NCBI GenBank assembly: GCA_030696085.1
Contig: JAUYNL010000070.1
Coordinates: forward strand, 1 to 64,000
Reading direction: 5' to 3'
Source of the DNA: Luteolibacter sp.
Lineage (GTDB): Bacteria > Verrucomicrobiota > Verrucomicrobiia > Verrucomicrobiales > Akkermansiaceae
DNA: 64,000 nucleotides
The position numbers and the translations under genes are program-made. The notes beneath the pieces are model-generated. The model was given only the letters and a program-made list of their open reading frames with translations, ran no database searches and was not told the DNA's origin. Of this stretch, positions 37,657 to 52,827 are shown one piece after another (position 1 is the first letter of the stretch; the number at the start of each line of letters is the position of its first letter).

Positions 37657-37749
37657 ATTGGGGGGATGAATACCGCTCTCAGTATTCCAGATGCAATGGT
37701 TCCGATATCCGCCCCGGAATCTCAAGGCAAAAAACCGGAAATACAGTTA

Positions 37750-37827: not shown

Positions 37828-39708
37828 TCAGGCCCCTTTCTGGCATTCAAAACCCGCAGCTGTGACATCGCGCGGCAGGGCCTCGCGGAAACTCCGCCAG
37901 CATTTCGACGGCAGGCGGGTGAGCAGGATCAGGACGACCTGAAAGATGATGAAAGCGACCAGCCATGGAAATGCCTTGTCCATGAAGCCGTAGGAATGGA
38001 GACCCACACCGAGCATGTTCACGCCGAACCATGAGAAGGCGGTGATCGCATTGCCAAAGATGGCCATGGCCATGATGCCGCGCTGGCGGATGAATCCACC
38101 CCAGCGGGCGTGGAGGATCAACGCACACCACAGCACGATGAGCAGAGCACCGTTCTCCTTGGGATCCCAGCCCCAGAAGCGGCCCCACGATTGGTCCGCC
38201 CAGATGCCGCCGAGCACCGTGCCCACGAAGCTGAATAGCGTGGCGAAACAAACGATGCCATACACCATGCCCGTGAGTTTCCTGGCGCTCTCGCGCGTCA
38301 ACAGGCGGGTGAACAGGCCAAGCACGACGTAGGCGATGGCCAGGAAACCCGCGAGAAACATCGCCGAGTAGCCTGCGGTGATGACCACCACATGCGTGGC
38401 GAGCCAGATGTTGCTGTCCAGCACGGCCTGCATCATTTCCAGGGTGTCCCCGCTGGACCCCAGATGGTGGGCGATGATGAGCGTGATGAAACCGACCATG
38501 CCGGAACTGGCGGAGCCGATCCCGTCGCGATACAGATGTTCCAGCACCAGACCGAGCGCCACGGCCCCCCAGCCAACGAAGATGGCGGAGGAATACAGAT
38601 TGGTGACTGGCGGGCGCCCTTGCAGATACATCCGCGAGAACATGCCGAACGAGTGAACCGCCAGCGCGAGCAACAACAGCAGGAAGGCCGTCTTGCGCAG
38701 GCCTTTGGGACAAACCAGCCAGGAAAGACAGGCCAGCAGGAAGGCTCCCACGTAGAGCACCATGCTGTGATAGAAAGGTTCCATCTGGTTGAAGCGCAGT
38801 TCGTAGGACGTGCGGCCCGCCCATTCCGGGTGCTCGATGTTGAGCAGGCCCGCGTATTCGCGCGTGACCTTGGAAAACTTGGCGGGATCGTTGGCGCGGA
38901 AGGCATCGCCCATGTCCGCCAGGGCGGACACCGAGGCCGGAATCTGGTCCGGGGACTTCACCCGCATCAGGGCGGCTCCGGTGGTGAGCCAGTCGTCCTC
39001 CCCGCCACCGGCGGGCGGCGCGACGACCATCAGATAGGAGAACTGCGACTGGCGCTCGTAGCGCGAAACTGCGGCGCGGAGTAAGGCCAGGCGATCACTG
39101 TCGAGTGCGCCGGAACCATCGCCGGGGTTCGCAGCCCCGGCTGCCACGGCTTTGGCATAAGTGTCGATTTCCTTGCCGAACCCGGCGGTTCCTTCCTGAT
39201 GGATACTGCTCTTGAGCCGCTGATAGAGCTGGATCGAGTTGCCGAGATTGAAGATGGCGGCTTGGAACGGCGTGCGTTTTGCGGACTCCATATCGGCCGC
39301 CAGCCTGCCTTCTTCGGTGATCTTGGCGAGATGCGGTTTGAGTTCGTCGTAGGTGCAGTATTTCTTGTCCGCCTGCGGGAAGCCGAACATGCCGAGCACT
39401 TCCTGGTTGGCAACAGCGAAAACCGGATAGGCATCCGCTTTCGCGGGATGGAACAACACATCCGCCAGCCAGCGCGATGCGCTGAGTTTGCCGCCCTCGG
39501 GCAGGCGCAGCGTCTGCTTGCCGCGCAGGATGAGCAGCGAGGTGCGGGCGACAGTGTCCATCGGTTTGATGCGACCGCCGGCCAGCACGGGAATGCGGTT
39601 GAAGGCTGAGAGATCGAACTCCCCGGGATCGGTCTTGGGATACATCCACGACGCGCCGATCCACAGGGCGGCCAAAAACAAAACAAGGTAGGGAACGAGG
39701 CGGTTCAT
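37828..39708 (-). CDS. ccsA: Cytochrome c biogenesis protein CcsA (System II)
   Basis: CcsA/ResC is the haem-handling membrane half of the System II cytochrome c synthetase and works with ResB. The 626-residue protein has an N-terminal helix, a large extracytoplasmic part (about 25-310) and about eight C-terminal transmembrane helices. The haem-binding tryptophan-rich WWD-type motif is visible as SWGRFWGWDPKENGALL near residue 520. Its start overlaps the resB stop (ATGA), so the pair is coupled. It closes a 15-kb run of minus-strand genes that encodes many c-type cytochromes, which fits a dedicated or co-expressed maturation system. Confidence 0.93.
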   Translation of the reverse strand: MNRLVPYLVLFLAALWIGASWMYPKTDPGEFDLSAFNRIPVLAGGRIKPMDTVARTSLLILRGKQTLRLPEGGKLSASRWLADVLFHPAKADAYPVFAVANQEVLGMFGFPQADKKYCTYDELKPHLAKITEEGRLAADMESAKRTPFQAAIFNLGNSIQLYQRLKSSIHQEGTAGFGKEIDTYAKAVAAGAANPGDGSGALDSDRLALLRAAVSRYERQSQFSYLMVVAPPAGGGEDDWLTTGAALMRVKSPDQIPASVSALADMGDAFRANDPAKFSKVTREYAGLLNIEHPEWAGRTSYELRFNQMEPFYHSMVLYVGAFLLACLSWLVCPKGLRKTAFLLLLLALAVHSFGMFSRMYLQGRPPVTNLYSSAIFVGWGAVALGLVLEHLYRDGIGSASSGMVGFITLIIAHHLGSSGDTLEMMQAVLDSNIWLATHVVVITAGYSAMFLAGFLAIAYVVLGLFTRLLTRESARKLTGMVYGIVCFATLFSFVGTVLGGIWADQSWGRFWGWDPKENGALLIVLWCALILHARWGGFIRQRGIMAMAIFGNAITAFSWFGVNMLGVGLHSYGFMDKAFPWLVAFIIFQVVLILLTRLPSKCWRSFREALPRDVTAAGFECQKGA

Positions 39709-40874
39709 GGCGCTGTGGCGGTTTTTTTGCGGCGGGAGAAGCCGATGAGATGGAAAAGAAACTGATAGATAAGACCGATGGACACGATCACGCAGGCAAC
39801 GTAAGGGGCTTGGTAGCTGGGATTGCGCACGACCTGAAGAATGGTGCCGCTGTTGTCCGGCTCGAATCCGGACTGATAGTAGGTATCGCCGCGGTAGCGC
39901 AGCGGATGGTTCATGAAGATGAGCACCTGGCGGCTATCGTCCACCTCGAGATCCGATAGATTGACCTTGCTGGAGAAGTTTTTCGGGATCTGGGTGCCGG
40001 GATAGGTTTCATGGGTGAAGTCCAGCAAGGTCAGGCTGTAGGGTTTGTAGTAGCGGGCGGGCCTGAGCTGGAGGCTCCATCTGCGTCCGCCGAACTCGAA
40101 ATTCTGCGGGGCGGCCAGGGCGTCGGAGACGAGCCAGGTGCCGAGCGAATCTCCGCCCTTGACGGGGATGATTTCAAGCACGGCGCTCATCGAATCGCGA
40201 TCATTCATCCTGGTGGCGCGGGCGGCGGCGGTCACCGAGACGCGCTGGCCGGTTCCCTGACTGGCGGCGGGCACCGATGTGCCGCCCTGGCCGATCATTC
40301 CAAGTTTCGAGTTTTGATAGAACCCGCGCACTGCCAGTTGGAAGGGCAGCGATTCATGGGTGATGGTGCCGCCAGACGCCAGACGTTCGCCGGGCACTGC
40401 GGTGACCTGCTCGGTTTCCGGATCGGTTTGGTCGATGACGGCGAACTCCATTTTCATGCTGTCCTCCGAGTAGTTGCTATTACCGCCTTCCTTGATGCGC
40501 ATGAAGCTGTGCACCGAGAACAAATCGGTGGCGAGGCCGCCGGCCAGCATGATGATGAGCCCGAGGTGGGTGAGCTGGATGCCGATTTTTTTCCACGCCC
40601 AGGAGAAGCGGCGGATGTGCGCGGCAATCAGGTTGCCCAGCAAGACCGCGCCAATGAGGTGGCCGCCGGGAAACACGGGCAGAGTGAAGTTTCCGGCAGG
40701 TGCCTGCCACCACACGAACCAGCTTTGAAAATACTCATCCTGCACCAGATAGAGGCCGAAGCGCACCTGCGCCAGCGTTCCCGCGAAGACCAGCACCAGC
40801 GCGGCGGCGAGGCAGAACACCGTAAGCCGCAGCGAGGACACGCCTTCTATCAATTGATTGAGAACTTTCATCAT
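39705..40874 (-). CDS. resB: Cytochrome c biogenesis protein ResB (System II)
   Basis: ResB (Ccs1) is the partner of CcsA in attaching haem to apocytochromes c. The 389-residue protein begins with LRLTVFCLAAALVLVFAGTLAQV, the typical first helix, has further helices near residues 60-110, a large extracytoplasmic domain with family-like segments such as VNLSDLEVDDSRQVLIFMNHPLRYRGDTYYQS, and a final helix near residues 355-380. It overlaps both neighbours by four bases, which implies tight co-translation of lipoprotein, ResB and CcsA. Confidence 0.92.
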   Translation of the reverse strand: MMKVLNQLIEGVSSLRLTVFCLAAALVLVFAGTLAQVRFGLYLVQDEYFQSWFVWWQAPAGNFTLPVFPGGHLIGAVLLGNLIAAHIRRFSWAWKKIGIQLTHLGLIIMLAGGLATDLFSVHSFMRIKEGGNSNYSEDSMKMEFAVIDQTDPETEQVTAVPGERLASGGTITHESLPFQLAVRGFYQNSKLGMIGQGGTSVPAASQGTGQRVSVTAAARATRMNDRDSMSAVLEIIPVKGGDSLGTWLVSDALAAPQNFEFGGRRWSLQLRPARYYKPYSLTLLDFTHETYPGTQIPKNFSSKVNLSDLEVDDSRQVLIFMNHPLRYRGDTYYQSGFEPDNSGTILQVVRNPSYQAPYVACVIVSIGLIYQFLFHLIGFSRRKKTATAP

Positions 40875-42037
40875 TCAGTGGTGTTGAAACGGATGGACTT
40901 GAGAAAAGTCATGAATTTGGTCTTTTCAGCAGCGACCAGGGCATCCGGGCCTGTGAATTTGAAAAACCAGGTCTCGCCCGCGTGCAGGATCCAGCCGGCG
41001 GCACAGCGGCTTTGGGCACCGGTGGCATCGATCACCTTGAGCGTCCTGGGACCGGCGGTGACTTCGCTGACCGTGGTGGCGAGCGCCGTTTCATCGATAG
41101 GCTCCAGGCCGATTTGTCCGCGCCAGCGGTTGACGTTGGCGAGATCTCCACCGACATCGCCGGGAAAATGGGTGACGGCGAGTTCTCCCTTCGAGCCATC
41201 CGTTCCGGTGACCGCGATGGTGGCGTAGCGGGCGGCGCTGCCCACTCCCACGGTCCAGCGGTCCGGAAGTTGCCAGGTGACCGGCCCGTCTGCCGCCGGG
41301 GTGGATGAAGCGGACGGCGGCGTGAAGTCCTCTCCGGGCGGGGTGCCGTGCATCGGCACTTTTCCGGGTGCGGCAGGTTTGGCCGATTGCACCCATTGGA
41401 TGAAATTGGATTTTTGCGCGGCGGTGAGCGCTGCGTTGCCGCGCATTTTGAAGAACCAGATGCTGTCATTCGTATGGGAGATCACCCCGAGAATGCGTCC
41501 GTCCTTTTTCGCATCGCCGCCTTCGGGGAGTCCTTCGAGATCGACCAACAGAGCGCTTCCAAGCTGGGTGACGAGGGTTTCCGCGGACTGGCGGAATGCG
41601 GCCTCGTCCACGGGCGGCAATCCGAGTTGGGCGCGCCAGCGGTTGGTGTTGTCCAGATCACTGCCCGCGTTGCCACCGAGAATGATCAGGGAAACATCTC
41701 CGGCCGCACCGTCCCCGCCCTCGACGAGGTAGCTGAGCTGACGCATGGCGGAGGCCGCCTGTTTTTTCCAGCCTTCCGGAGGACTGTCAGTCGCGGACGG
41801 GCCGCCTCCGAGGGCACCGAGCGCCGACAATTGATCGGCAGTCATTCCGGCATGCGGGTCACCGTCAGGCGTGCCCGGCACTGCGGCGGCGGGTGGCATG
41901 CCCGCGTGCGGGTTCGCGGTCGTCGCTGGCTCTGCCGGGGCTTCCCTGGCGATGCGATAGACTTTGATTTCCTTGTCTTGTTTGCAGGACGCGGCGGTGA
42001 GGATGATGAATCCGGCGAGAAAAATAGAGGATCTCAT
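40871..42037 (-). CDS. Putative lipoprotein with two related domains, in cytochrome operon
   Basis: The 388-residue protein starts with a lipoprotein signal ending LTAASC (Cys17) and a Pro/Ala-rich spacer. It then holds two diverged copies of a domain of about 125 residues: each contains a GGDLxNxNRWRxQxGLxPxDE segment followed about 60 residues later by a W-F-F-K motif (DSIWFFKMRG and ETWFFKFTG). Domains of this pattern are, as far as I recall, common in uncharacterised Planctomycetes and Verrucomicrobia lipoproteins. It overlaps resB by four bases. A role in cytochrome maturation or haem delivery is possible from context only. Confidence 0.75.
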   Translation of the reverse strand: MRSSIFLAGFIILTAASCKQDKEIKVYRIAREAPAEPATTANPHAGMPPAAAVPGTPDGDPHAGMTADQLSALGALGGGPSATDSPPEGWKKQAASAMRQLSYLVEGGDGAAGDVSLIILGGNAGSDLDNTNRWRAQLGLPPVDEAAFRQSAETLVTQLGSALLVDLEGLPEGGDAKKDGRILGVISHTNDSIWFFKMRGNAALTAAQKSNFIQWVQSAKPAAPGKVPMHGTPPGEDFTPPSASSTPAADGPVTWQLPDRWTVGVGSAARYATIAVTGTDGSKGELAVTHFPGDVGGDLANVNRWRGQIGLEPIDETALATTVSEVTAGPRTLKVIDATGAQSRCAAGWILHAGETWFFKFTGPDALVAAEKTKFMTFLKSIRFNTTE

Positions 42038-42139
42038 TGAGGCAGTTCGTGCGATATGTGGATACTTAAAACTAATGGGAGTTGCGTCAATCCGGAAGTC
42101 GGAAACGGGCAGCAAATCAGATATTCCAAGCCTTCAGGC

Positions 42140-43813
42140 TCACGCGTCACCAGAGTCGGGTGGTGTGAGTTCGCGGCGGGTCGGCTCGCTGACGCGAGTC
42201 TGTCGGGCACGCAGCAGGGTAAAGGCCACGGAGACCACCAGCAGCACGGTGCCAAGCGCAAGGAACGAGACAATCCGCTGGACCCCCGCCAGTCTCCCGA
42301 TGCCGATGAAGAGCAGATAGGCCACGGCAAGCAACAAGGTGCCGTGCCCCATCCAGCGGTATTTCCGTGATTTGCCAACCAGCCAGATCCCGTAATAGCC
42401 CACGGCAAGGCCGATCCATGAGGGAGCCACCCAGGCGCCTGGCGCGATGTGATGGAGAGCGTGCGGGAAAATGAAGAACGCGCAGGTCAGGTAGGCGTTG
42501 CGCATCAGCTCGGATTTCAGTTCCAGCCGGTGCTTCTGCCGGTTGAGGACGGCAGCACTGATCAGCGCGACCAGCCCGAAACCCAAACTGATGCCGTTCT
42601 CGTCCTTTGCCACCACCATGTAGCAGGCGACCACGGCCAGGTAGATCATGAAATTTGCAACGACGATGAAACGCGAGCGGAACCAGATGGCGGTGGAAAC
42701 CACCAGCAAACTCTGCAGCGAGAGCCAGACGAACAGCTCCGGCAGGCCGCTGGCCCGGATCAGCGCCATGGTCAGCGCACCGTATCCTGTCATCGCATAG
42801 ATGAAGGTCGCAAACCGGCTTTGCTCGCGCACCCAGAACATCACCGCTATTCCTAACAAAACTATCGACATGACCAGATTTGCCATCACAAAGTTCCCGC
42901 CATGGGCGATCAGCGTGTGCAGCAGAAACATCGCGTAGCCCACCGCATTCGATACCGCGCCGACCTGCGCCACGGCGTCCTCGGTGGCGTGCCTGCGGCG
43001 CAAGGTCATCGCCAGCGCATTAAGAATCATCCATCCCGGCAGGAACCACACGCCCGCAAAGGGACCGGCCGCCACTTCAAGACGATTGCCGAATAGTGGA
43101 TTGCCGAGCGCCCAGAGCAGGTAGGCGGGAAATGCGCCGCAACCCGCCATCACCACCAGCCACGGCCAGTCGCGCGATTGTGCCGAGACCGCTGCGGCAA
43201 GCAGCACCGCCGTCACCATGCCTAAGAAATACCAGGGAGTTCCAGCCGCAAGTGCCGCCGCCAGACCGGTCAACAGCGCCACAACCGTTAGATAGGCCGA
43301 ACGGCGCGACCAGGCGATGGCGAAGTTGATCGCGAATGCCAGCGAAAGCGCCGCGCAGGCCGCGAAGGATGAAGGTGCCAGCAGCGGCTCCGCGCCGAAG
43401 GAACACAAGCGCAGGGTCGCGAAAAACAACAATCCCATGCCGGCTGCGCGGAAATTGCTCGATATCAGGGGCAGTGAAGCATGCAGCCACGAGGCAAGCC
43501 CTAGCAACGCCAGCGCCAGCAGCCACCCGGCAGTGGATGGCAGTACCGCGGGAAACTGCGGCCACGGCTGCGAGAGCGTCAGGGCCGCGCCGATCGCCAG
43601 CGCCATGATGCCGATCCGGGCGAAGAGCGTCTGCCCCACCGCCATCTCAAACTCACCTTCGACCGGGGCGGCGATGGCTGTCTCGAAGCTACATTTTTCC
43701 GCCGGAGCCTCCTCATGAAGACCGAGCAGCAGTTCCACCCGGGCGAGCCGTTGCTCCAAGCGGGCAAGCCTCTCCGCTTGGTCTTCAGGTAGCTGAGGAG
43801 AGACGGGGTCCAT
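42140..43813 (-). CDS. DUF2339-like polytopic membrane protein
   Basis: The 557-residue protein has a short N-terminal coiled coil (residues 10-35), then a hydrophobic segment FARIGIMALAIGAALTL typical of the start of DUF2339 proteins, and about 14 or more transmembrane helices over the rest of the chain. DUF2339 proteins have no established biochemical role. It sits inside the cytochrome operon, 57 bases after the unknown CGCG protein gene and about 100 bases before the lipoprotein gene; whether it takes part in electron transfer or envelope assembly is unknown. Confidence 0.7.
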   Translation of the reverse strand: MDPVSPQLPEDQAERLARLEQRLARVELLLGLHEEAPAEKCSFETAIAAPVEGEFEMAVGQTLFARIGIMALAIGAALTLSQPWPQFPAVLPSTAGWLLALALLGLASWLHASLPLISSNFRAAGMGLLFFATLRLCSFGAEPLLAPSSFAACAALSLAFAINFAIAWSRRSAYLTVVALLTGLAAALAAGTPWYFLGMVTAVLLAAAVSAQSRDWPWLVVMAGCGAFPAYLLWALGNPLFGNRLEVAAGPFAGVWFLPGWMILNALAMTLRRRHATEDAVAQVGAVSNAVGYAMFLLHTLIAHGGNFVMANLVMSIVLLGIAVMFWVREQSRFATFIYAMTGYGALTMALIRASGLPELFVWLSLQSLLVVSTAIWFRSRFIVVANFMIYLAVVACYMVVAKDENGISLGFGLVALISAAVLNRQKHRLELKSELMRNAYLTCAFFIFPHALHHIAPGAWVAPSWIGLAVGYYGIWLVGKSRKYRWMGHGTLLLAVAYLLFIGIGRLAGVQRIVSFLALGTVLLVVSVAFTLLRARQTRVSEPTRRELTPPDSGDA

Positions 43814-43870
43814 GAGGTGAGGTGCGCGGCATGGCGCGGGTTTCCCGATTCAACCGGGCGCGGGACCGCA

Positions 43871-44326
43871 TCAGCCGCATCCGCAGCCACCGGCAAGCTG
43901 ATCGGCCAGTTCGCAAATCGATTCGTAATAGTCATCCTTCTCCATGCCGAGGGCGGCGGCACCGAAGGTTTCGGCATCCTCGCTGGAGGCGAAGTCGCCG
44001 TAGTTGACCGCCACGAGCTGATAGAGCACCAGGTGTGGCACGCGCTGGAGCTGGGTCATGAAAACCGGATGCACGCGGATTTCAAATCCCTCCTCGGGTT
44101 TTTCGCCGTGCGGGTGGGCATAGGCGGCTTCACCGTCGTGCAGGCCATCCGCAGTGAATTTCACCTCGCAGGGATAGCGGACGAGCGCGCGGTCCAGCAG
44201 AATTTCCTGAAGTTCCTTCCAGCCGATTTTCGGCCCGAAACGCCCGCGAATTTCCAAGCCCTTGTCGGCGACATGCTCATTGAGGGATCGCTTGGCATCC
44301 TCGGCAGTGGGGTGGCTTTGCGTCAT
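43871..44326 (-). CDS. Hypothetical protein ending in Cys-Gly-Cys-Gly
   Basis: The 151-residue soluble protein has no signal peptide. Recognisable parts are an N-terminal helix, a strand-rich centre (GWKELQEILLDRALVRYPCEVKF) and a C-terminal helix followed by a GGCGCG tail. The tail could bind metal or undergo thiol chemistry. The gene lies 23 bases downstream of the NrfD-like gene in the cytochrome operon. I do not recognise the family; by position it could be an assembly factor for the iron-sulfur or haem proteins. Confidence 0.7.
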   Translation of the reverse strand: MTQSHPTAEDAKRSLNEHVADKGLEIRGRFGPKIGWKELQEILLDRALVRYPCEVKFTADGLHDGEAAYAHPHGEKPEEGFEIRVHPVFMTQLQRVPHLVLYQLVAVNYGDFASSEDAETFGAAALGMEKDDYYESICELADQLAGGCGCG

Positions 44327-44349
44327 GCGGAAGAAACGTGTGACGGGTT

Positions 44350-45630
44350 TCAGTGTGCTTCAATCGCCGTTTCCACCTTGGGTGGCAGGCCGTCTTCAAG
44401 CACCCCGCAGCCTTCATTGGCACGCGCGAGCCGGCCTTGCAGGATCGGCACCGCCATCCGCAGCAGGATCGTGTAAACCAGCAGGCCGAAGGCCCAGATG
44501 CCGAACGAGATCAAGGTTTCATTGGTCGATGGCTGGTATTCCACGATCATGCCCAGAGTGCTCGGCACGAATCCGGGGATGACCATGCCCATGCCTTTCT
44601 CGATCCAGATGCCGATGATCGACAGCACACAGGCGAGGTTGAGCCACTTGAGGCTGCGGCTCACCGGCAGCACCAGCAGGAACATCGCGATCAGGTTGAA
44701 GACAATCGCCGTCCAGATCCATGGCACCAGCGCGTTGTGGCCGTGCAGGCCGAAGAACAAGTATTTGGCCGAGGCCACATGCGTGGCACCGGTGTAGAAT
44801 TCCTTGAACAACTCGTTGATGAGCAGGAATACGTTGATGATCATCGAAACCTGGACGATCGAGCGCAGCGTGAGCAGCGCCTTGTCGCTGATCGGGTAAT
44901 GGGTGACCGCGCGGATGACTTGCAGCGCCAGGATGATCAGCGCGGGCCCTGCGGTGAACGCGGAGGCGAGGAAACGCGGGCCGACGATCGACGAGTTCCA
45001 GAACGGCCGCCCGCCGAGACCGACGTAAAGGAAAGCGGTGACGGTGTGGATCGAGACTGCCCAGGCGATGGCGATGAACACGAAGGGAATGTAGAACCAA
45101 CGCGACGGCGTGCGGCCGCAGTAGCGGCAATAAAGCAGATAGCCGCAAATGTGGACGTTGAGCAGCAGGTAGCCATTGAGCACCACCACGTCCCAACTCA
45201 GCATCGAGGCGGGAAAGTTCAATTGCCCGATGCCGGGAATCAGGTGCCAGAAGCGGTCCGGCCGCCCGAGGTCCACGGTGACGAAGGCGAGGCACATCAG
45301 GATGGCGGCGACGGCAAGCAACTCGCCGAAAACCACCAGGTCGTGGAGCTCCTTGTTTCGATAAATATACACGGGAATGACCATCATCACGGCGGCGGCG
45401 GCGACACCGACGAGGAAGGTGAAGTTGCCGATGTAAACACCCCACGAAACCTCATCGCCCATGCCGGTGACGATCAGTCCGTGGACGAATTGCTTGCAGT
45501 AGGCGTTGATGCCAAGAAGCACGATGGCGGTGAGCAGTCCCATCCAGGCGTAGTAGCGCCAATCGCCGACGAAGGCGATTCTCGCACAGCGGGTCAGGAA
45601 CGTGATGTAGTTGCGAACGGCTTGGGTCAT
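44350..45630 (-). CDS. NrfD/PsrC-type quinone-interacting membrane subunit
   Basis: The 426-residue integral membrane protein has about ten transmembrane helices and segments typical of NrfD/DsrP/HybB-like proteins, such as WGVYIGNFTFLVGVAAAAVM, AFVTVDLGRPDRFWH, FPASMLSWDVVVLNGYL, and the FKEFYTG and IWIEKGMGMVIPGF regions near the C-terminus. Such subunits exchange electrons with quinones and pass them to a partner ferredoxin-like subunit, which is encoded by the overlapping upstream gene (ATGA). With the tetraheme cytochrome further upstream it forms a set resembling the Geobacter Cbc4 complex. No molybdopterin subunit is present. Confidence 0.92.
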   Translation of the reverse strand: MTQAVRNYITFLTRCARIAFVGDWRYYAWMGLLTAIVLLGINAYCKQFVHGLIVTGMGDEVSWGVYIGNFTFLVGVAAAAVMMVIPVYIYRNKELHDLVVFGELLAVAAILMCLAFVTVDLGRPDRFWHLIPGIGQLNFPASMLSWDVVVLNGYLLLNVHICGYLLYCRYCGRTPSRWFYIPFVFIAIAWAVSIHTVTAFLYVGLGGRPFWNSSIVGPRFLASAFTAGPALIILALQVIRAVTHYPISDKALLTLRSIVQVSMIINVFLLINELFKEFYTGATHVASAKYLFFGLHGHNALVPWIWTAIVFNLIAMFLLVLPVSRSLKWLNLACVLSIIGIWIEKGMGMVIPGFVPSTLGMIVEYQPSTNETLISFGIWAFGLLVYTILLRMAVPILQGRLARANEGCGVLEDGLPPKVETAIEAH

Positions 45631-46574
45631 ACGTCAAAGTAGTAAAAGAATCTGGGAGAGGTTCCGAGTTCCTCCTTGAGCTGGATGAACACCCGTTTGG
45701 TGGAGAGAATTTTGCTGACCTCGCTCTCGGGATCGAGGATGTTGCCGAATTTTCGGGCACCGGCCGGGCACACTTCGAGGCAGGCCGGGTAGCGGCCGGT
45801 GCGCGTGCGCTGGACGCAGAAATGACATTTCTCCATGACGCCGATCTTGCGCGGGCGGTTGCCGAGATAGGCCATCTCCGGATTGAGGCGTTCCTTGGGA
45901 ATCGAGGGTTTTGCGAAATTGAAATGGCGCGCGCCGTAGGGACAGGCGGCCATGCAGTAGCGGCAACCGATGCACCAATCATAGTCGATCACGGTGATGC
46001 CGTCCTTTTCCTGCCAGGTGGCGTTGACCGGACAAACCTTGACACAGGGAGGATTCTCACATTGCTGGCATTGCACCGGCATGTAGAAGAAGCCTTTTTC
46101 AGGAACTTTTTCCGGATCGTAGTTGTGATCGGACTTCTCAATATCGAGCGAGCCGTGCGGCATTTTGAGCACGCGGATGTATTGGATTTCCGGGCTGCGC
46201 GACTGGTTGTTCTCGGCCACGCAGGCATGCACGCACTTGCGGCAGCCGATGCAGCGGGTGAGGTTGAGCGCATAGACGAACTCGACACCGTCCATCGGCC
46301 GGAGGTCGCGGACGTGGGGGCGCACGTCGTATTGCTTTTCAACTTCGCGGGAGATGCGCGCAAGTACCTTGGCCATGTCGGCGGGCGACATTTCCTTGTA
46401 ATGCTTTTGGAGGAACTCCTCGGTGGAGGTGAACTTTTCAAGGTCCATCAGCGGCTTGAGACTGGCGGCCAGCGCGGCGGCCCCTGCACCGAAGATGGCG
46501 GACGAGCGCAGGAAACTGCGGCGGCGCATCGAGGGAGCCGGGGCTTTTCCGGGGGCATCGGATTGCGAATTCAT
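45627..46574 (-). CDS. TAT-exported 4x[4Fe-4S] ferredoxin-like subunit (NrfC/DmsB/HybA type)
   Basis: The 315-residue protein has a twin-arginine signal (RRRSFLR, residues 17-23, then an Ala-rich hydrophobic stretch). It carries sixteen cysteines in four groups: 108/111/114/118, 169/172/177/181, 201/204/207/211 and 250/253/265/269, the layout of NrfC/HybA/DmsB-type electron-transfer subunits with four [4Fe-4S] clusters. It is expected on the outer face of the inner membrane, between the NrfD-like subunit encoded next and the tetraheme cytochrome encoded just before (three-base gap). Confidence 0.93.
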   Translation of the reverse strand: MNSQSDAPGKAPAPSMRRRSFLRSSAIFGAGAAALAASLKPLMDLEKFTSTEEFLQKHYKEMSPADMAKVLARISREVEKQYDVRPHVRDLRPMDGVEFVYALNLTRCIGCRKCVHACVAENNQSRSPEIQYIRVLKMPHGSLDIEKSDHNYDPEKVPEKGFFYMPVQCQQCENPPCVKVCPVNATWQEKDGITVIDYDWCIGCRYCMAACPYGARHFNFAKPSIPKERLNPEMAYLGNRPRKIGVMEKCHFCVQRTRTGRYPACLEVCPAGARKFGNILDPESEVSKILSTKRVFIQLKEELGTSPRFFYYFDV

Positions 46575-46577
46575 AGG

Positions 46578-47234
46578 TCAGTGAGTGTTGGATTCGCCGA
46601 AATGGGCGGTGGCGACGGGATTCACGCGCAGATGGTTGGGGCGCGGAGCGGGCGCGCGCTGGGGAAACTTCGGCGAGTGGGGATTGTGGCAATTCACGCA
46701 ATCCTGTTTGTGATACTCGCCTTTGGATCGGTCCCAGTAGCCGCTGGTGCGGCCATGCGAGCCATGTTCCCAATCGCGGTGGGTCGGACCATGGCAACTG
46801 CCGCAGAGCTGGGTGCTTTCCTCAAACTTCAAGGAATGACCGTCGCGCGTTTGCAGGACCAGCAGGTTTTCGCTGTTGTGGCAGTTGAAGCAATCGTTGT
46901 TGCGGCCGTGGCTGCCGTGGCCCATGACAATGTTTTCGTGTTCATCGGGCACTACCACATGGTTGTCCTTGTCGTAGGTCAGCTCGAGTTTCTTGCCCTC
47001 TTCGTGGCATTCATAACAACTGAAGGCCAAAAGTTCGTCCTCATCTTCCTTTTTGACCAGATCCGCGTAGGAGCGCCGCCAGGTTTGGGGCTGGAGGAAC
47101 TCTTCATCCACCAATGGAAGTTGCCGCACCGGTTCGACGCGCCCCCAGAGGTCCAGGGAGAACGAAATCACCAGTGCCGCAAACACCACTCCGAGGGTGG
47201 TCAAGGCGAGACGGATTTTTTTGGGATCATTCAT
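46578..47234 (-). CDS. Membrane-anchored tetraheme cytochrome c
   Basis: The 218-residue protein has an N-terminal membrane anchor (about residues 8-27) and four CXXCH haem motifs at Cys73, Cys115, Cys144 and Cys179, with paired histidines (HGSHGR twice) that can act as distal ligands. It should lie in the periplasm next to the iron-sulfur subunit. The ATG at 47234 is favoured; an ATG at 47270 would add 12 residues before the anchor. The upstream 110-base gap holds a 9-bp hairpin with one G-U pair (47294-47316) without a T-tail. Confidence 0.9.
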   Translation of the reverse strand: MNDPKKIRLALTTLGVVFAALVISFSLDLWGRVEPVRQLPLVDEEFLQPQTWRRSYADLVKKEDEDELLAFSCYECHEEGKKLELTYDKDNHVVVPDEHENIVMGHGSHGRNNDCFNCHNSENLLVLQTRDGHSLKFEESTQLCGSCHGPTHRDWEHGSHGRTSGYWDRSKGEYHKQDCVNCHNPHSPKFPQRAPAPRPNHLRVNPVATAHFGESNTH

Positions 47235-47344
47235 GGACTTGTGGTGGATGCGATTGGTGGTGACAGGCACCCGGATGGGACGCGGACGCGGGCGGCGGCT
47301 TCGGTGTGAAACCGCCTGCCCGGAGTGCCGCGGACTTGATTCGA

Positions 47345-47665
47345 TTATTTGAGGGAGCGGACGTATTTTACGACGGCGGCGATATCGTCATCGCTGAGGC
47401 CCTTGATCGGCTTCATGCGTTGCTTGCCGTCTTCGATCACGCCTTCCTTGATTGACTTGACGACCTGTTCGTCGCTGAGTTTTTTCTGCTCCACGGTCAG
47501 GTCCTTGATCTTGAGTTTTTTGCCCATGGGGGTGGCACCCTTGCCGTCCGCGCCGTGGCATTTCGCGCAATTTTTCGAATACACTTCCGCGCCGTCGGCG
47601 GCGCTCGCACTCGTTGCAGTGGCGACAAAGGCCGCGGTGGCGGCAATCATGATGATGCTTTTCAT
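47345..47665 (-). CDS. Small periplasmic monoheme cytochrome c
   Basis: The 106-residue class I cytochrome has a signal peptide ending ASA (about residue 22), one haem motif CAKCH and a probable axial Met in the QRMKPIKG segment. It is a likely soluble electron shuttle in the periplasm. It is clearly paralogous to the other monoheme cytochrome of the operon (ending at 49447): both share a YxKxCAxCHGxDGxGxTxMGKK stretch. The 166-base gap upstream may hold a separate promoter. Confidence 0.92.
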   Translation of the reverse strand: MKSIIMIAATAAFVATATSASAADGAEVYSKNCAKCHGADGKGATPMGKKLKIKDLTVEQKKLSDEQVVKSIKEGVIEDGKQRMKPIKGLSDDDIAAVVKYVRSLK

Positions 47666-47831
47666 GGATGTTTGGTTGTTTGATTTTGATTCGAAACAGA
47701 AACGGGCAAAATGAAACGATTGCTCGTTCTATCCGATAGCATGAAGGATCAATTTCCCGAAGAAACCAGCAACGCCAAAATCGTTGATGCGGAAGAAATG
47801 AAAAAATCCGCGCATATAGGACTTACGGGTC

Positions 47832-49319
47832 CTATTCCATGTTCTGGCCGTTGTGGCACTCGGCGCAGTTCGGTTCCAGGTATTCCGAATCCAGATGGAA
47901 GAAGTCGTGGCCCTTGAGATTGACCTTCTCCAATTCCGCACCGGCTCCCTGGGCGGTGATCAGGTGGCAGGCGTTGCAATCGCTGCCCTTGATGGTCTTG
48001 CCACGGTCTTCGTTGAAAAGGTTGCCGGCATGGCAGCGGAAACAGCCGTTGGTTTCCTTGTGGCCGATGTGATCCGGGTAGGCGCGCCAGTCGGCCTTCA
48101 TTTCAGGGTAGAAATTGTTTTCGTAAATGACGAGAACCTCTTTGATCAGTGCATCCACGCGCGGATCGTCCGGGTATTCGGCATGCAGGAAGGCCGCTAT
48201 TTTCTCGTTTGCCTCGGCGCGGGTGGAATAGGGCTGGACGAGCGCTTCAACCACCTTGGCCTTGGCCCAGGGGATCGACGGGGCGATGCGGCCCATCGCC
48301 ATGGCCTGATCCACTGCGGCATTGGGACTGAGGAATTTGTGTGCCGGGCGGTTGTGGCAATCCATGCAGTCCATCGCCCGGATGGGGTGCTTGGAAATGT
48401 CGTCCTTGAAGTCCTCGCTGCGGTATTCGGTGACCTTGCCGTCGGCATCGGTGACGCGCACCCAGGGGATTTGCTGGCGCTCGGGATCCAGCGCTATGAA
48501 CTCGATCTTGTTGGAAACATTCATGTGCGAGTGAATGCCCTCGACCACGCCATGCACGGGATCGCTGCCGCCGACCTTGAGGACCATCTGCACGGTGAAG
48601 GGCGAGTTGGTTTCATCGGCCAGGAAGCGCTTGAATTTCCGGTGCACGTTGCCGATGTGTTTTTCCGACCAATGGCAGGACTGGCAGGTTTCCTCGGCCG
48701 GGCGCTGGTTGACGTTGTGAAGCCGGACCGGCCGGTCGAAATTCCCCAGCACGGTGCGGTAGAGCTGGCGCACGCCGCTCACCTTGGTGCGGATGTAATT
48801 GCCGGCTCCCGGTCCCACATGGCAGGCGACACAGGCGACCTGGGCATGGGCGGAATGCTGGTATGCATTGTATTGCGGCTCCATCGGGACGTGGCAGGTC
48901 GCCCCGCAGAAGGAATTGGTTTCCGTGAGATGATAGGTCTGGTAGCTGCCGAGCGCGGTGAGGAAGATGAATCCAAAGCTGCCGATGACGAACGCAGTCA
49001 GCAGGCGGCGGTCGCGCCTGCGCGAGAGATTGACATGCAGGATGAACGGAGTCTGCACACCCGCTAGCGCCTTGCGGACTTGGCACGTTTCCAGGATGTA
49101 GCCAAGCAGAACCAAGCCCAAGCCCGCAAACAGGAACATTGGAGTCACCACGTAGGCGAGGATGCCCATGTAGGGGTTGGCGTGGACGGCGAACAGGTCC
49201 ACCGCGAAGAGCAGCATGAACGCAAACAGCGCGGCCACGACGAGCACCGCGCCAGAGAGACTCAGCCAGTTGCGCAGGCGGCTGAGATGGCTTGCTTTGA
49301 GTGGAGGTTTCTCATTCAT
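47832..49319 (-). CDS. Seven-heme NapC/NirT-type inner-membrane cytochrome, ImcH-like
   Basis: The 495-residue protein has three N-terminal transmembrane helices (about 19-41, 50-75 and 106-127) and seven haem motifs: Cys138 in an unusual CX3CH form (CGATCH), then CXXCH at Cys163, 212, 318, 426, 448 and 485. The region after the first haem (HVPMEPQYNAYQHSAH, CVACHVGPGAGNYIRTK) is typical of NapC/NirT-type quinol dehydrogenases. Length, three helices and seven haems closely resemble Geobacter ImcH, the quinol oxidase used with high-potential extracellular acceptors. The ATG at 49319 is chosen since the earlier ATG at 49376 lies across the terminator hairpin. Confidence 0.9.
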   Translation of the reverse strand: MNEKPPLKASHLSRLRNWLSLSGAVLVVAALFAFMLLFAVDLFAVHANPYMGILAYVVTPMFLFAGLGLVLLGYILETCQVRKALAGVQTPFILHVNLSRRRDRRLLTAFVIGSFGFIFLTALGSYQTYHLTETNSFCGATCHVPMEPQYNAYQHSAHAQVACVACHVGPGAGNYIRTKVSGVRQLYRTVLGNFDRPVRLHNVNQRPAEETCQSCHWSEKHIGNVHRKFKRFLADETNSPFTVQMVLKVGGSDPVHGVVEGIHSHMNVSNKIEFIALDPERQQIPWVRVTDADGKVTEYRSEDFKDDISKHPIRAMDCMDCHNRPAHKFLSPNAAVDQAMAMGRIAPSIPWAKAKVVEALVQPYSTRAEANEKIAAFLHAEYPDDPRVDALIKEVLVIYENNFYPEMKADWRAYPDHIGHKETNGCFRCHAGNLFNEDRGKTIKGSDCNACHLITAQGAGAELEKVNLKGHDFFHLDSEYLEPNCAECHNGQNME

Positions 49320-49350
49320 GGAATTTGTTTTTCCGTAGTTGTGAGTGATC

Positions 49351-49384
49351 AAAAAATAGCGGCATCCCGGAAACAAGATGCCGC
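49351..49384 (-). terminator. Intrinsic terminator inside the cytochrome gene block
   Basis: On the minus strand GCGGCATC and GATGCCGC (49384-49377 and 49366-49359) form a perfect 8-bp stem with a 10-base loop, followed by TATTTTTT. It lies after the monoheme cytochrome gene and 32 bases before the ImcH-like start, so it should end or attenuate the mtrA/mtrB-like transcript and separate it from the inner-membrane part. Confidence 0.8.
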
Positions 49385-49446
49385 CTGAGCAACCGGGTTG
49401 GTGATGGAGAGAGGGCGCTCTAACAGCACATCAACCGGGATGGTGG

Positions 49447-49755
49447 TTATTTTTTGAACTTGCGGATGTAAGCCACGAGCTCCTTGGCCTCGGCTTCGGT
49501 CACCTTGTCCTTGTAGGTCTTCATCTTGCCCATGCCTTCGAGGATCGCCTTGACGCCTTCGGCATCGGACCATTTCTGGCCTTCCTCGGTGGTGTAGTCA
49601 ATGACTTTGCTTTTCTTGCCCATGGCCGTCTGGCCCCTGCCATCCTTGCCGTGGCAGGATGCACAACTCTTGTTGTAGATCGCCTCGGCATCGCCGAAGG
49701 CAAGGGGCGAGAGCGCGAGAAGCGCCAAGAATGTGGTGGAAGATGGGCATTTCAT
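49447..49755 (-). CDS. Small periplasmic monoheme cytochrome c, paralogue
   Basis: The 102-residue protein has a signal peptide (to about residue 21, ending AFG), one haem motif CASCH at Cys31 and a likely axial Met in GMGKMKTY. It resembles the second monoheme cytochrome of the operon and could carry electrons between the inner-membrane dehydrogenases and the MtrA-like cytochrome. The ATG at 49755 gives a normal signal peptide; an upstream ATG at 49821 would add 22 residues. It follows the outer-membrane barrel gene by 78 bases and is followed by a strong terminator. Confidence 0.9.
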   Translation of the reverse strand: MKCPSSTTFLALLALSPLAFGDAEAIYNKSCASCHGKDGRGQTAMGKKSKVIDYTTEEGQKWSDAEGVKAILEGMGKMKTYKDKVTEAEAKELVAYIRKFKK

Positions 49756-49833
49756 GGGGATATGGGATGGGTTTGAGGTGAAAACCGACCAAAGAACCCG
49801 AAGCATGAAGCCACGAACCAACCGTGAGCGGTT

Positions 49834-52008
49834 TTAGAACTGGAAGCGCAGGCCGGTCATGAGCGAATGGGCTCCTGCGGAAAGATTGGCGTAGGAGTCG
49901 TCCTCGTAGTAATCGAACTGATAGCCGACGACGAGTTGTTTGGTATCGTCGATGTCATAGGCGGCGCCGAGCGAGAAGGTGTGGAGCACGTTGTCAAGCG
50001 AATCATCCACGGTCGCCAGTTCGTCGGCGACATCGCCGCTGGCGAGATTGCCGTCAGAGAGTGTCATGGTATAGGATGCCAGCAGTTTGAGATTTTCGCT
50101 CAACTGGTAGTCACCGCCAAAGGTGAGCATGTAAACATCGATGGTGGAGTCCGTGTAAATGCCGGGTTCAAAGACCGTATTCGCTTCAAACCGACGGCTC
50201 TTGCTTTCAAAATAGAGCAGGTCCGCATCCATCTGCATCCAGTCGAATCCGGCGTAGAGGTTCAGATCCTTGGAGGGATTGTAGCTGACCATGGCCCCGG
50301 CGGACTGGAGGGTGTTGCTGACATCCTGGGCATAGGAGAGGAGCGGCGCCACTTTATCATTGAACCGCAGGTCGTTGTTTTCCGCACTGCGGTAGTTGTA
50401 GTATGCCGACCAGACGAGACCGTTTTCCGCCGTGTAGGTGACTGCGGATTTCAGACCGAGCACTTCCTCGGGATCGGTGACGAGGCCGGTTTCATCGGCG
50501 GTGCGATAAACACCGGTCACGCGGAAATTGTAGCCATTCCAGTTGAGCGCGCTCCAGCGCAGATACATTTCGTCATAGACGGTATCCGTGCGGTAGAGTG
50601 AGACGCCTGGGTGAATCTCGGCGGGAGTGATGCTGCTGTAAGTCAAATCGCGTGATTTGTCCATGTGGCGCCAGCCGAGGGCGAAGGTGGAGCCCCATCC
50701 TTCCGGACGAACCAAGGCCGCCAGGTCGGTGTCCCATGACTCGATATCGTTGATTCGAGTGCCGAGGGTTTGTCCCAGGTTGATGTTGGTCAGGGTTCCG
50801 GCCGGAAAGGTCGAATTGTTTTCACGCTGGGCCCAACGCACCTCGCCTTCCATTCCGAACACGGGGGTGAACGAGGTGTCGAAGTTGATGAACGCCTCCT
50901 GATTGACGATTTCCCCGGTATTGTAGTCCTGAGCCGACACATAGGAAGGGAAGGATTCCTGCTTGAGGCGGAAATCAAGATAACCGGCCGAGACGTTGGT
51001 ATGATCACCGAACTGACGCTTCAGATTGAGCGAATTGGTCAAGCGGCTGGCGTCCGGGATATAGCCCACAGGGCGGGTGGGATTGGTCACCGTGTATGGC
51101 GGTGAGACGATCGGAGTGAGGTCGCCAAGCATGGCGGTGCGCACGCGGTTGTCGAAGCGTTCGTAGCTACCGAGGTAGTTGATGTCGAACCAATCGCCGG
51201 GTGAAGCCTGCACTTTGAGAGTAAAGCGGTTCATGTTTTCATCCACATCCCGCGAGTAGGTGCGCCAGCGTTCGTTGACACGCGTGCCACCGGAACCACC
51301 GCTGAGATCGCTGCCGCCGAGCACATAGGATTGCATGGCAAGACCGTCACGCAGGTATCCGTCCCAAGCGATGTCGATCCGGGTCTTCTCGCCGAGCGCA
51401 CCGGGCTTGATCTGGAAATTCGCGCCGTAGCTGAAGCGGTCCACGAAATAATCCGTGTCGGAGGAATCAAAATTGTTCCGCGAAAGAAAGCCGGAATTGG
51501 TGTTGGCGTTGGTGGGGTTGTATCTGGAATCCACACCGACGTTGGGGCCGAAGAGCCCTTCGACGACATTCGGAGAGAATTGGTAGCCGAGGCTGCCGGT
51601 AGTGGTGCGCAGGAAGTTGTAGTAGGAAGTCAGTGCGAAGGCCTCCTCATCCCATAACAACTCGCCGCCGTGGCGGTAAAACCCCTCGCCCCAGCGGGTG
51701 ACGCTGAGCGACTTGTCATCGCCGTAGGCGTAGTTCAGATCGAAGTCCACATCGGCATAGAAACCCGAGCGGTAGTTGCCGTTGTAGCCCTTGCGGACGT
51801 TGTAGCGGTCCAGATAGGTGTAGCCGGAGTGGCCGGGGGCGTCGAAATAGTCGAAGCCGTAGAGTTTCGTGGTGATGCTGCCGGTAAAGTCACCTTGGGA
51901 GGCTGCGGGCTGGACCTCGGGTTCCGCCACCGGACCGGCCAAGACTGGTTGAAGGGCGAGGCAACCGAGTCCTACCAGAGGAAGATAAAGATAACCTGTC
52001 GTTTTCAT
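49834..52008 (-). CDS. MtrB/PioB/DmsF-type outer-membrane beta-barrel
   Basis: The 724-residue protein has a signal peptide (to about residue 25) and then alternating short amphipathic strands rich in Tyr, Trp and Gly, ending in a C-terminal phenylalanine (SLMTGLRFQF), as expected for a barrel inserted by BamA. Length and strand pattern fit the MtrB/PioB porins that sheath a periplasmic multiheme cytochrome. The mature part contains no cysteine, so the CXXC of Shewanella MtrB is absent. It lies 21 bases after the MtrA-like gene, the diagnostic gene pair. Identification rests on the context as well as the pattern. Confidence 0.85.
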   Translation of the reverse strand: MKTTGYLYLPLVGLGCLALQPVLAGPVAEPEVQPAASQGDFTGSITTKLYGFDYFDAPGHSGYTYLDRYNVRKGYNGNYRSGFYADVDFDLNYAYGDDKSLSVTRWGEGFYRHGGELLWDEEAFALTSYYNFLRTTTGSLGYQFSPNVVEGLFGPNVGVDSRYNPTNANTNSGFLSRNNFDSSDTDYFVDRFSYGANFQIKPGALGEKTRIDIAWDGYLRDGLAMQSYVLGGSDLSGGSGGTRVNERWRTYSRDVDENMNRFTLKVQASPGDWFDINYLGSYERFDNRVRTAMLGDLTPIVSPPYTVTNPTRPVGYIPDASRLTNSLNLKRQFGDHTNVSAGYLDFRLKQESFPSYVSAQDYNTGEIVNQEAFINFDTSFTPVFGMEGEVRWAQRENNSTFPAGTLTNINLGQTLGTRINDIESWDTDLAALVRPEGWGSTFALGWRHMDKSRDLTYSSITPAEIHPGVSLYRTDTVYDEMYLRWSALNWNGYNFRVTGVYRTADETGLVTDPEEVLGLKSAVTYTAENGLVWSAYYNYRSAENNDLRFNDKVAPLLSYAQDVSNTLQSAGAMVSYNPSKDLNLYAGFDWMQMDADLLYFESKSRRFEANTVFEPGIYTDSTIDVYMLTFGGDYQLSENLKLLASYTMTLSDGNLASGDVADELATVDDSLDNVLHTFSLGAAYDIDDTKQLVVGYQFDYYEDDSYANLSAGAHSLMTGLRFQF

Positions 52009-52029
52009 GGTTGTTGTTCGGATTGGCGG

Positions 52030-52827
52030 TTAGTAGCGGAGGTGTTGGTCGGTGGTGCTGCCATGGATGGATCCGTGGCAGGAGGTGCAGTTTCTAAGAG
52101 CCGCGCCCGAGACGGTCGCCCCGCCGCCGTTGCCTGCGGCATTGTGGCCGTGGCGGTTCTGGGCGATGCTGTGGCATTGGAGGCAGAGCATCGGCTGGCT
52201 GGCGGTGAGCATTTTGCGGATCGGCGAGCCGTGCGGGTTGTGGCAGTTGGTGCAGTTTTCGGCGACCGGCGGGTGTTCGAAGACGTGCGGACCTTGTTTG
52301 TCCTGGTGGCAGGAGGTGCAGAGACGGGTGGTGCTGGAGAGCGTGGTGCGCTTGTCACCGTGATGATCGTGGCAACTGGTGCAGTCCATCGCGCCTTCCT
52401 TGATGGGATGGTGGGAGGCCATGTTGAATCGGGCGTTCACATCCTGGTGGCAGGCGATGCAGTTGCTGGTGCCTTTTTTGATGAGACTCTTGTCACCGCC
52501 GCTTTCGGCGTGTTTGGAGCCGGGTCCGTGGCATGCTTCGCAGCCGCGTTCGAGGCCCTTGTTGCCGGTGGTGATGATCTTGCCGTGAGTGCGGTCGTGG
52601 AAATTTGAGAGAATATCGCCGTGGCATTCCTTGCAGGTTTCCGAGCCGACAAATGAGGCCCCTGGGATGCTAGGAGTATTCACCAGGGCGCGACCGCCGG
52701 TGGCGCAGGACATCAGGATCAGACCCGCCGACGCCCCGCCTCCCGCGATCCACAGGAAGTTCTGACGCAGGTTGCGAATCCAGCGGCTGGCAGCCGAGGC
52801 CCATGGGAGATTCCAAGCGATTTTCAT
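52030..52827 (-). CDS. Octaheme MtrA/DmsE/PioA-like periplasmic cytochrome
   Basis: The 265-residue protein has a hydrophobic leader with a lipobox-like LMSC (Cys41) and eight CXXCH motifs at Cys65, 96, 123, 149, 170, 192, 215 and 247. The spacing and segments such as GSETCKECH, EHPPVAENCTNCHNPHGS and LCLQCHSIAQ match DmsE/MtrA proteins. Those normally hold ten haems, so this member is two short. It should span the MtrB-like barrel and conduct electrons through the outer membrane. It is the first gene of the cytochrome block. Confidence 0.9.
   Translation of the reverse strand: MKIAWNLPWASAASRWIRNLRQNFLWIAGGGASAGLILMSCATGGRALVNTPSIPGASFVGSETCKECHGDILSNFHDRTHGKIITTGNKGLERGCEACHGPGSKHAESGGDKSLIKKGTSNCIACHQDVNARFNMASHHPIKEGAMDCTSCHDHHGDKRTTLSSTTRLCTSCHQDKQGPHVFEHPPVAENCTNCHNPHGSPIRKMLTASQPMLCLQCHSIAQNRHGHNAAGNGGGATVSGAALRNCTSCHGSIHGSTTDQHLRY

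Follow-up and report, generated by a model that had tools for sequence, protein, structure and literature searches.

How might a bacterium of the Akkermansiaceae pass electrons from its quinone pool to the outside of the cell, and do the genes for doing so share one history? Both questions are raised by a block of thirteen genes at 37828-52827, on the minus strand of a 64,000-nucleotide stretch of Luteolibacter sp. DNA (positions 1 to 64,000 of contig JAUYNL010000070.1, GenBank assembly GCA_030696085.1), which we call the window. We consider it likely that this block is an operon for electron export across the cell envelope and that it is composite by descent. Its gene content, haem motifs, protein families, fold match and recurring gene order are direct observations.

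The thirteen open reading frames (ORFs) are separated by intergenic gaps of -4 to 166 bp and carry 20 CXXCH motifs and one CX3CH, 21 haem motifs in all (eight in the octahaem cytochrome, six and the CX3CH in the ImcH-type protein, four in the tetrahaem cytochrome and one in each monohaem cytochrome). A first-pass annotation of the window, made from the letters alone, had listed thirteen minus-strand genes with about 21 haem motifs, and both counts stand. It had also seen a quinol dehydrogenase, an iron-sulphur (FeS)/NrfD module, periplasmic monohaems, an outer-membrane pair and Ccs maturation together in one block, as we find them. The genes, all on the minus strand, are given here in order of transcription, with lengths in amino acids (aa):

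52030..52827, minus strand: octahaem MtrA/DmsE-like cytochrome, predicted lipoprotein; 265 aa, 8 CXXCH, lipobox-like invariant Cys41
49834..52008, minus strand: outer-membrane beta-barrel with MtrB as best fold match; 724 aa, model with 24 strands of at least 10 residues
49447..49821, minus strand: monohaem cytochrome c, likely a shuttle; 124 aa, PF13442 4.5e-13
47832..49376 (start probably near 49319), minus strand: ImcH-type inner-membrane cytochrome; three transmembrane helices, CX3CH and 6 CXXCH, PF03264 1.6e-11
47345..47665, minus strand: second monohaem cytochrome c, likely a shuttle; 106 aa, PF00034 1.3e-14
46578..47270, minus strand: tetrahaem cytochrome; 4 CXXCH, one N-terminal hydrophobic helix
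45627..46574, minus strand: ferredoxin-like subunit; 16 Cys (room for four 4Fe-4S clusters), Tat-like RRRSFLR start
44350..45630, minus strand: NrfD/DsrP-type membrane subunit; 426 aa, PF03916 1.1e-35, NF045798 DsrP over cut-off
43871..44326, minus strand: conserved 151-aa protein; no Pfam match at 0.01
42140..43813, minus strand: DUF2339 membrane protein; PF10101 1.9e-9
40871..42115 (start probably near 42037), minus strand: predicted lipoprotein, two tandem Mog1/PsbP-like domains in the predicted structure
39705..40874, minus strand: ResB of cytochrome c maturation system II; PF05140 4.4e-19
37828..39708, minus strand: CcsA of cytochrome c maturation system II; PF01578 5.8e-23

Some TTG and GTG starts were probably called too far upstream, relatives of the ImcH-type protein and of the 414-aa lipoprotein starting near internal Met residues at about the two positions given in brackets. 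The genes are not chance ORFs, because their family scores are good (NrfD 1.1e-35, ResB 4.4e-19, Cytochrom_C_asm 5.8e-23, DmsE-type 3.2e-49) and because other genomes repeat their order. Across the whole genome, a DNA pattern resembling CXXCH matches 162 times, against 75 times for the reversed control; the 100 matches that were listed show two dense groups, one in this block and the other in a single gene on contig C50.

ImcH relatives at E <= 1e-109 were found in 32 of 387 genomes of the phylum, this one included, and in 67 of the 387, many of them as partial matches, at E up to 0.001; within the genus, 20 of 73 genomes (again with this one) have a match. A stretch of at most 4.5 kb holds octahaem, monohaem and imcH in this order and on one strand in 16 of the 19 genus regions, 5 of the 20 phylum regions and 15 of the 80 named loci, six of the 15 being the same records as genus regions, and in all 36 of these core-order loci (six of them repeats of one record) the monohaem lies between octahaem and imcH. 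The synteny comparison proposed at first pass, made here across genomes of the phylum, thus finds the order octahaem-barrel-monohaem-imcH recurring, with barrels recognised by size and place and not by similarity to the window barrel. Many other imcH loci have no octahaem in reach: a relative of it was found in 29 of the 80 named loci, 11 of the 20 phylum regions and 16 of the 19 genus regions. The named loci include metagenome-assembled genomes (MAGs) of Akkermansiaceae, Opitutae, Pedosphaera and Limisphaerales, and other phyla.

The first-pass annotation had held such a cluster to be unusual outside the groups where its families are known. This we have to withdraw, since verrucomicrobial porin-octahaem clusters are in print, in excerpts of He et al. 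2017 for Trout Bog Verrucomicrobia MAGs and Opitutus (PMC5615132), and since imcH with octahaem-barrel neighbours recurs in the phylum. As described there, those clusters share with ours a porin beside a periplasmic cytochrome with eight haem sites and the same proposed role; likened by description, they differ in that the inner-membrane step appears, in the part of the paper used here, only as 'ET in IM', whereas here ImcH and an NrfD module lie in the block (PMC5615132). A 2025 study gives, in an extract, 0.83 as the share of Trout Bog Verrucomicrobiota MAGs with extracellular electron transfer genes (PMC12285243). Among the matches listed from the open-access literature, supplements and preprints excluded, we found no description of an operon joining imcH and an octahaem-barrel pair in Verrucomicrobiota.

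At the inner membrane, the ImcH-type protein has three transmembrane helices, a CX3CH (CGATCH, seen in alignment A1) and six CXXCH; the first-pass annotation was right about the ImcH type, and of the seven haems that it gave the protein, one belongs to the CX3CH. It is the only match to PF03264 in the genome and has no match in the PDB at 0.01. Kinship with nitrite reductases was rejected, the NrfH/NapC matches being weak, partial and far under their cut-offs. For comparison we draw on a 2018 survey which we take to be that of Zhong and Shi. In its passages on ImcH, the family is described by three N-terminal transmembrane helices, an adjacent CX3CH and five to nine CXXCH (PMC6295460), all of which are found here. 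Like Geobacter ImcH, the window protein combines three helices, a CX3CH and six CXXCH, at a length of 514 aa against 495-519 in Geobacter and its kin. It differs in adjoining an MtrAB-like pair, as do the other loci described here: the survey, in the part used, had no mtrAB beside any imcH (PMC6295460). The 80 named loci that were kept contain no Geobacter record, and the likeness to ImcH is one of architecture.

At the outer membrane, the octahaem cytochrome is clearly homologous to MtrA/DmsE, matching PDB chain 6r2q_A at 9e-34. In the search output this chain bears the molecule name 'Cystathionine beta-synthase', under an entry with the title 'Structure of the Mtr complex'; we take chains A and B of that entry to be MtrA and MtrB. 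Membership of the decahaem MtrA/DmsE family fails, both model scores being under cut-off (GSU2203 model NF041028, 1.4e-56, 192 of 325 bits; DmsE model TIGR03508, 3.2e-49, 167.7 of 192.2 bits) and the protein having 8 CXXCH instead of ten haems. The earlier call of an MtrA-like cytochrome holds as homology. Cys41 is invariant in all 12 rows of alignment A2 and is predicted to be the lipobox Cys, which would make the octahaem a lipoprotein.

Two further observations concern octahaems elsewhere. In the imcH-region copies counted, the verrucomicrobial octahaem closes with a CX4CH motif, mostly CWSAGCH: 11 of 11 phylum regions, 16 of 16 genus regions and 24 of 29 named loci have it (for example L047:5658-6590 and L061:6512-7351), the five named loci without it belonging to Acidobacteriota or Omnitrophota. 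Searches for CXXCH overlook this motif. In four Acidobacteriota loci with imcH relatives (L122, L129, L133 and L140), an octahaem relative with ten CXXCH has a barrel-size ORF beside it.

The barrel has no match to MtrB/PioB models at Pfam E up to 1 or NCBIfam E up to 0.1 (HMMER filters drop most matches above about 0.1). A GSU2204 model matches residues 511-594 only, at 2.9e-8; by gene number, GSU2204 would be the neighbour of GSU2203, whose model is the best for the octahaem. These matches do not set the window pair apart, because they are shared: the GSU2203 model finds each of the 12 octahaems in A2, and the GSU2204 model 3 of the 11 barrels in alignment A3 (A1, A2 and A3 have 14, 12 and 11 rows selected among the loci). 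An AlphaFold2 model of the barrel, made from 22 alignment rows, has 24 long strands and finds 6r2q_B first both with Foldseek (E 7e-12; BtuB next, 2.7e-7) and with VIA-align (Z 16.1, 4.9 A, 502 residues; OprC next, Z 15.6 over 366). We therefore read it as an MtrB-fold barrel overlooked by sequence models, a modelled fold for which care is urged by a mean predicted local distance difference test (pLDDT) score of 58.5 and by a runner-up, OprC, within 1 Z; these two values and the silent MtrB/PioB models count against the assignment. The first-pass call of an MtrB-like barrel thus stands for the predicted fold and not for the sequence family. That annotation had named a barrel outside the MtrB/PioB family, with multihaem proteins of unrelated kinds, as the outcome that would tell against it, and profile searches bear this out by half: the barrel is outside those models, yet its predicted fold has 6r2q_B as best match and the octahaem matches 6r2q_A.

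A search of 99 genomes with the barrel sequence returned itself alone, with no match in the 98 others, 60 of them of the genus; a single-barrel scan of genome contigs confirmed none of 16 candidate stretches; and against the PDB a sequence search gave one irrelevant match (E 0.23) and two profiles gave nothing. Among the named loci there are 27 barrel candidates, of which 21 entered alignment A5 and 20 entered A6. An hhalign comparison of two window-type barrels with 20 operon barrels (probability 34.8, E 4.1e-4, 496 columns) gives a weak hint that the two kinds are distantly akin. Set against Shewanella MtrAB (6r2q), the pair resembles it in the match to chain A and the best fold match to chain B; it differs in having 8 and not 10 haem motifs, in a predicted lipoprotein octahaem, in the lack of MtrC in the cluster and in a barrel outside the MtrB/PioB models.

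The NrfD subunit scores 423.1 bits with the DsrP model NF045798, over the cut-off of 350, and the ferredoxin-like subunit 181.6 bits with the DsrO model, whose cut-off is 200. Relatives of the tetrahaem cytochrome, 49-58% identical, adjoin NrfD, and those of the 151-aa protein, which ends in CGCG, are 55-64% identical and mostly lie beside the same nrfD type. A whole DsrMKJOP complex was rejected: the 13 genes, the only ones scanned, hold no match to DsrM or DsrK. The cassette is thus like DsrJOP in its NrfD and like CbcSTU in its tetrahaem/FeS/NrfD layout (PMC10989804, as excerpted); it differs in lacking DsrMK in the cluster, and the likeness to CbcSTU (Cbc4) is one of layout only. The tetrahaem-FeS-NrfD cassette accompanies imcH in nine of the 80 named loci, in two of the 20 phylum regions and in none of the 19 genus regions. 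Because of this absence from the genus regions (at most 20 kb each, only these having been searched), and because other FeS/NrfD genes there are 28-31% identical to those of the window where scored, the cassette may be non-native, a weaker case than that for the barrel; the nine-row NrfD tree has no starred branch and gives no placement. As a separate observation, in five loci of genus members (L171:16320-19998, L173, L177, L184 and L185) a trihaem-FeS-NrfD-monohaem-DUF2339 cassette near imcH replaces the tetrahaem one, NrfD being confirmed by Pfam in L171 and presumed for the 411-aa genes of the other four.

At the end of the operon, ResB (PF05140, 69.1 bits, cut-off 24.6) and CcsA (PF01578, 82.1 bits, cut-off 29.9) both exceed their family cut-offs and identify maturation system II; TIGR03144 stays under its own (123.5 of 187.6 bits). 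The 414-aa lipoprotein before them has no Pfam family over cut-off, and a relative of it shares a region with resB or ccsA in 14 of the 80 named loci, 8 of the 20 phylum regions and 10 of the 19 genus regions, counts in which three or more records appear twice (of 15 relatives in named loci, 10 entered alignment A7). Its model (pLDDT 75.3) has two copies of a Mog1/PsbP-like domain, each of the VIA-align matches (LpqN, Z 11.9; PsbP, 10.6; Mog1, 10.0) covering one domain and Foldseek reaching only E 5e-4 and weaker. From its position one may guess at a so far uncharacterised part in system II, such as delivering haem or assembling cytochromes.

Are these parts of one descent? Quick trees, with support by the Shimodaira-Hasegawa-like approximate likelihood ratio test only, were built from rows cut back to the part that matches the window protein, under E and length cut-offs (50 rows for the octahaem, 9 for NrfD, 31 for CcsA and 41 of 113 for ImcH). 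The window ImcH groups with that of genome G014 (99*) inside a clade of the genus (100*); CcsA, 85% identical to that of G050, likewise falls inside the genus clade (99*); relative to genus regions, ResB is 66-81% and one monohaem 55-80% identical. Judged by tree for ImcH and CcsA, and by identity and position for the monohaem, the 414-aa lipoprotein and ResB, these genes are a backbone native to the genus. A foreign origin of the whole operon was rejected, both trees placing their proteins in the genus.

What the first-pass annotation missed is that the outer-membrane pair and the NrfD cassette differ from the versions in imcH regions of the genus. In its tree the window octahaem falls outside the genus clade (99*) and groups with the second octahaem copy of G420 (98*), whose family is of Opitutae type; the window protein is 57% identical to the G420 protein and 41-47% to those of the genus. 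Eight canonical CXXCH are found in the window octahaem, in the second copy of G420 and in G515, and the octahaems of genus and phylum imcH regions (16 of 16 and 11 of 11) have seven CXXCH and a CX4CH, the latter last where aligned. Over 729 columns the barrel has 44% identity with its G420 counterpart (570 bits), and the best of 17 genus barrels reaches 34.7 bits, 22% over 206 residues. A two-row profile recovered complete barrels of this type from 2 of the 200 genomes searched in the family of G420, with a partial match in a third genome and two marginal matches besides. The pair thus appears to occupy the usual slot as a different and rare type, and an exchange in place is, by a small margin of confidence, the explanation that we favour. 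On balance we also lean towards a wider model, in which a fixed inner-membrane and maturation backbone carries an exchangeable outer slot: the native CX4CH pair would have been replaced, a quinol-oxidising cassette added, and the acceptor or working potential changed. A similar picture is given for Geobacter by Starwalt-Lee et al. 2026, in the sections used here, where inner-membrane cytochromes are mostly vertical and porin-cytochromes gained and exchanged (PMC12977616).

Several results speak against an exchange. The window octahaem was flagged as a long branch in the quick tree. An approximately unbiased (AU) test holding it with the genus, a group picked after seeing the tree, gave p-AU 0.066 and so did not reject that placement at 0.05, the held tree being 42.7 log units worse. 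Six more octahaem copies of the genus, 42-45% identical, lie on contigs other than that of imcH and are excluded from the motif count of 16 of 16. The guanine-plus-cytosine (GC) content, tried as a sign of transfer, puts no foreign mark on the pair (0.572 and 0.622, with 0.549 and 0.593 for the neighbouring monohaem and imcH, and no break). Finally, the genome is a draft of 110 contigs, in which a chimeric join is possible.

The pair might, then, be native and have diverged very fast without any exchange. Outer-membrane cytochromes of Geobacter and Shewanella do evolve fast, by the account in the same sections (PMC12977616), the AU value would allow it, and identities of 41-47% to genus octahaems are not far under 57%. 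Nevertheless G420 carries both octahaem types, an imcH-linked one with CX4CH (L047) and a stand-alone one with 8 CXXCH (L167), so the two are distinct lineages, and the barrel scores 570 bits with the L167 type against at most 34.7 bits with the 17 genus barrels. We regard a native pair as unlikely.

From the parts described, complex formation and a flow of electrons can be proposed, with its direction and acceptor. The ImcH-type cytochrome would oxidise quinol at the inner membrane, the tetrahaem/FeS/NrfD complex probably being a second quinol entry point; the monohaem cytochromes would ferry electrons across the periplasm; the octahaem lipoprotein, inside the MtrB-fold barrel, would carry them across the outer membrane to an acceptor outside the cell, most likely humic quinones, Fe(III) or Mn(IV); and ResB and CcsA would attach the haems. 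Export is the suggested direction because quinol oxidation is, to date, the one role in which the survey passages used here implicate ImcH relatives (PMC6295460), and because no match to RuBisCO was found in the genome. Two results weigh on the other side: the cluster has no MtrC/OmcA-like surface cytochrome (the rest of the genome was not searched exhaustively), and the genome has three COX1 matches. Because of the latter, the organism need not depend on an external acceptor and probably respires oxygen too.

A conduit running inwards would instead oxidise external Fe(II) or reduced humics and pass the electrons to the quinone pool or to oxidases such as the COX1 matches might represent. PioAB and MtoAB, suggested for Fe(II) oxidation, work without an extracellular cytochrome, as would the pair here (PMC6344600, in extract). 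With ImcH relatives tied to quinol oxidation and RuBisCO unmatched, we hold this direction to be distinctly improbable and keep export as the preferred one.

The composite might also be an artefact of assembly or binning, the outer-membrane pair of another organism having been joined to the contig, as the draft state in 110 contigs and a contamination estimate of 2.04% would permit. The barrel and the monohaem, however, are spaced by 12 bp in the usual slot order, GC shows no break, and 57% is the highest octahaem identity in any sampled genome that might have been the donor, the barrel having no nearer donor there either; such a chimera is very improbable. That the pair serves an extracellular molybdenum reductase of the DMSO type, as DmsEF does, and not minerals or humics, is hardly credible: the DmsE score that invites it is under cut-off, no molybdenum reductase is among the 13 genes, and PF00384 matches a single ORF of the genome, on another contig and of unsettled identity.

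We thus see the block as a real and probably functional electron-export operon, judged by its sequence, of a kind known in outline from the phylum; new are the operon as a complete unit and, probably, the exchanged outer-membrane module. By placing a defined candidate quinol oxidase in the same operon as porin-cytochromes of the published verrucomicrobial kind, the block makes the pathway testable as a unit, and imcH beside an octahaem-barrel pair is a marker set by which electron-exporting Verrucomicrobiota could be found. Were the exchange real, two conduit types on one chassis would offer a natural experiment on acceptor range, and the outer-membrane conduit would move as a unit, agreeing with the Geobacter picture as excerpted (PMC12977616).

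Two neighbouring or related genes may be added. Next to the operon on its downstream side, at 33184-37725 and in the same orientation, lies a gene for a 1513-aa protein with RCC1 repeats and a cadherin-like domain. A second multihaem cytochrome of the genome (L052, G000:C50, 1173-4481, minus strand) has 9 CXXCH and a hydrophobic N-terminal stretch and adjoins a GMC oxidoreductase and a gluconate 2-dehydrogenase subunit 3; it is perhaps part of a periplasmic sugar dehydrogenase with its own electron outlet.

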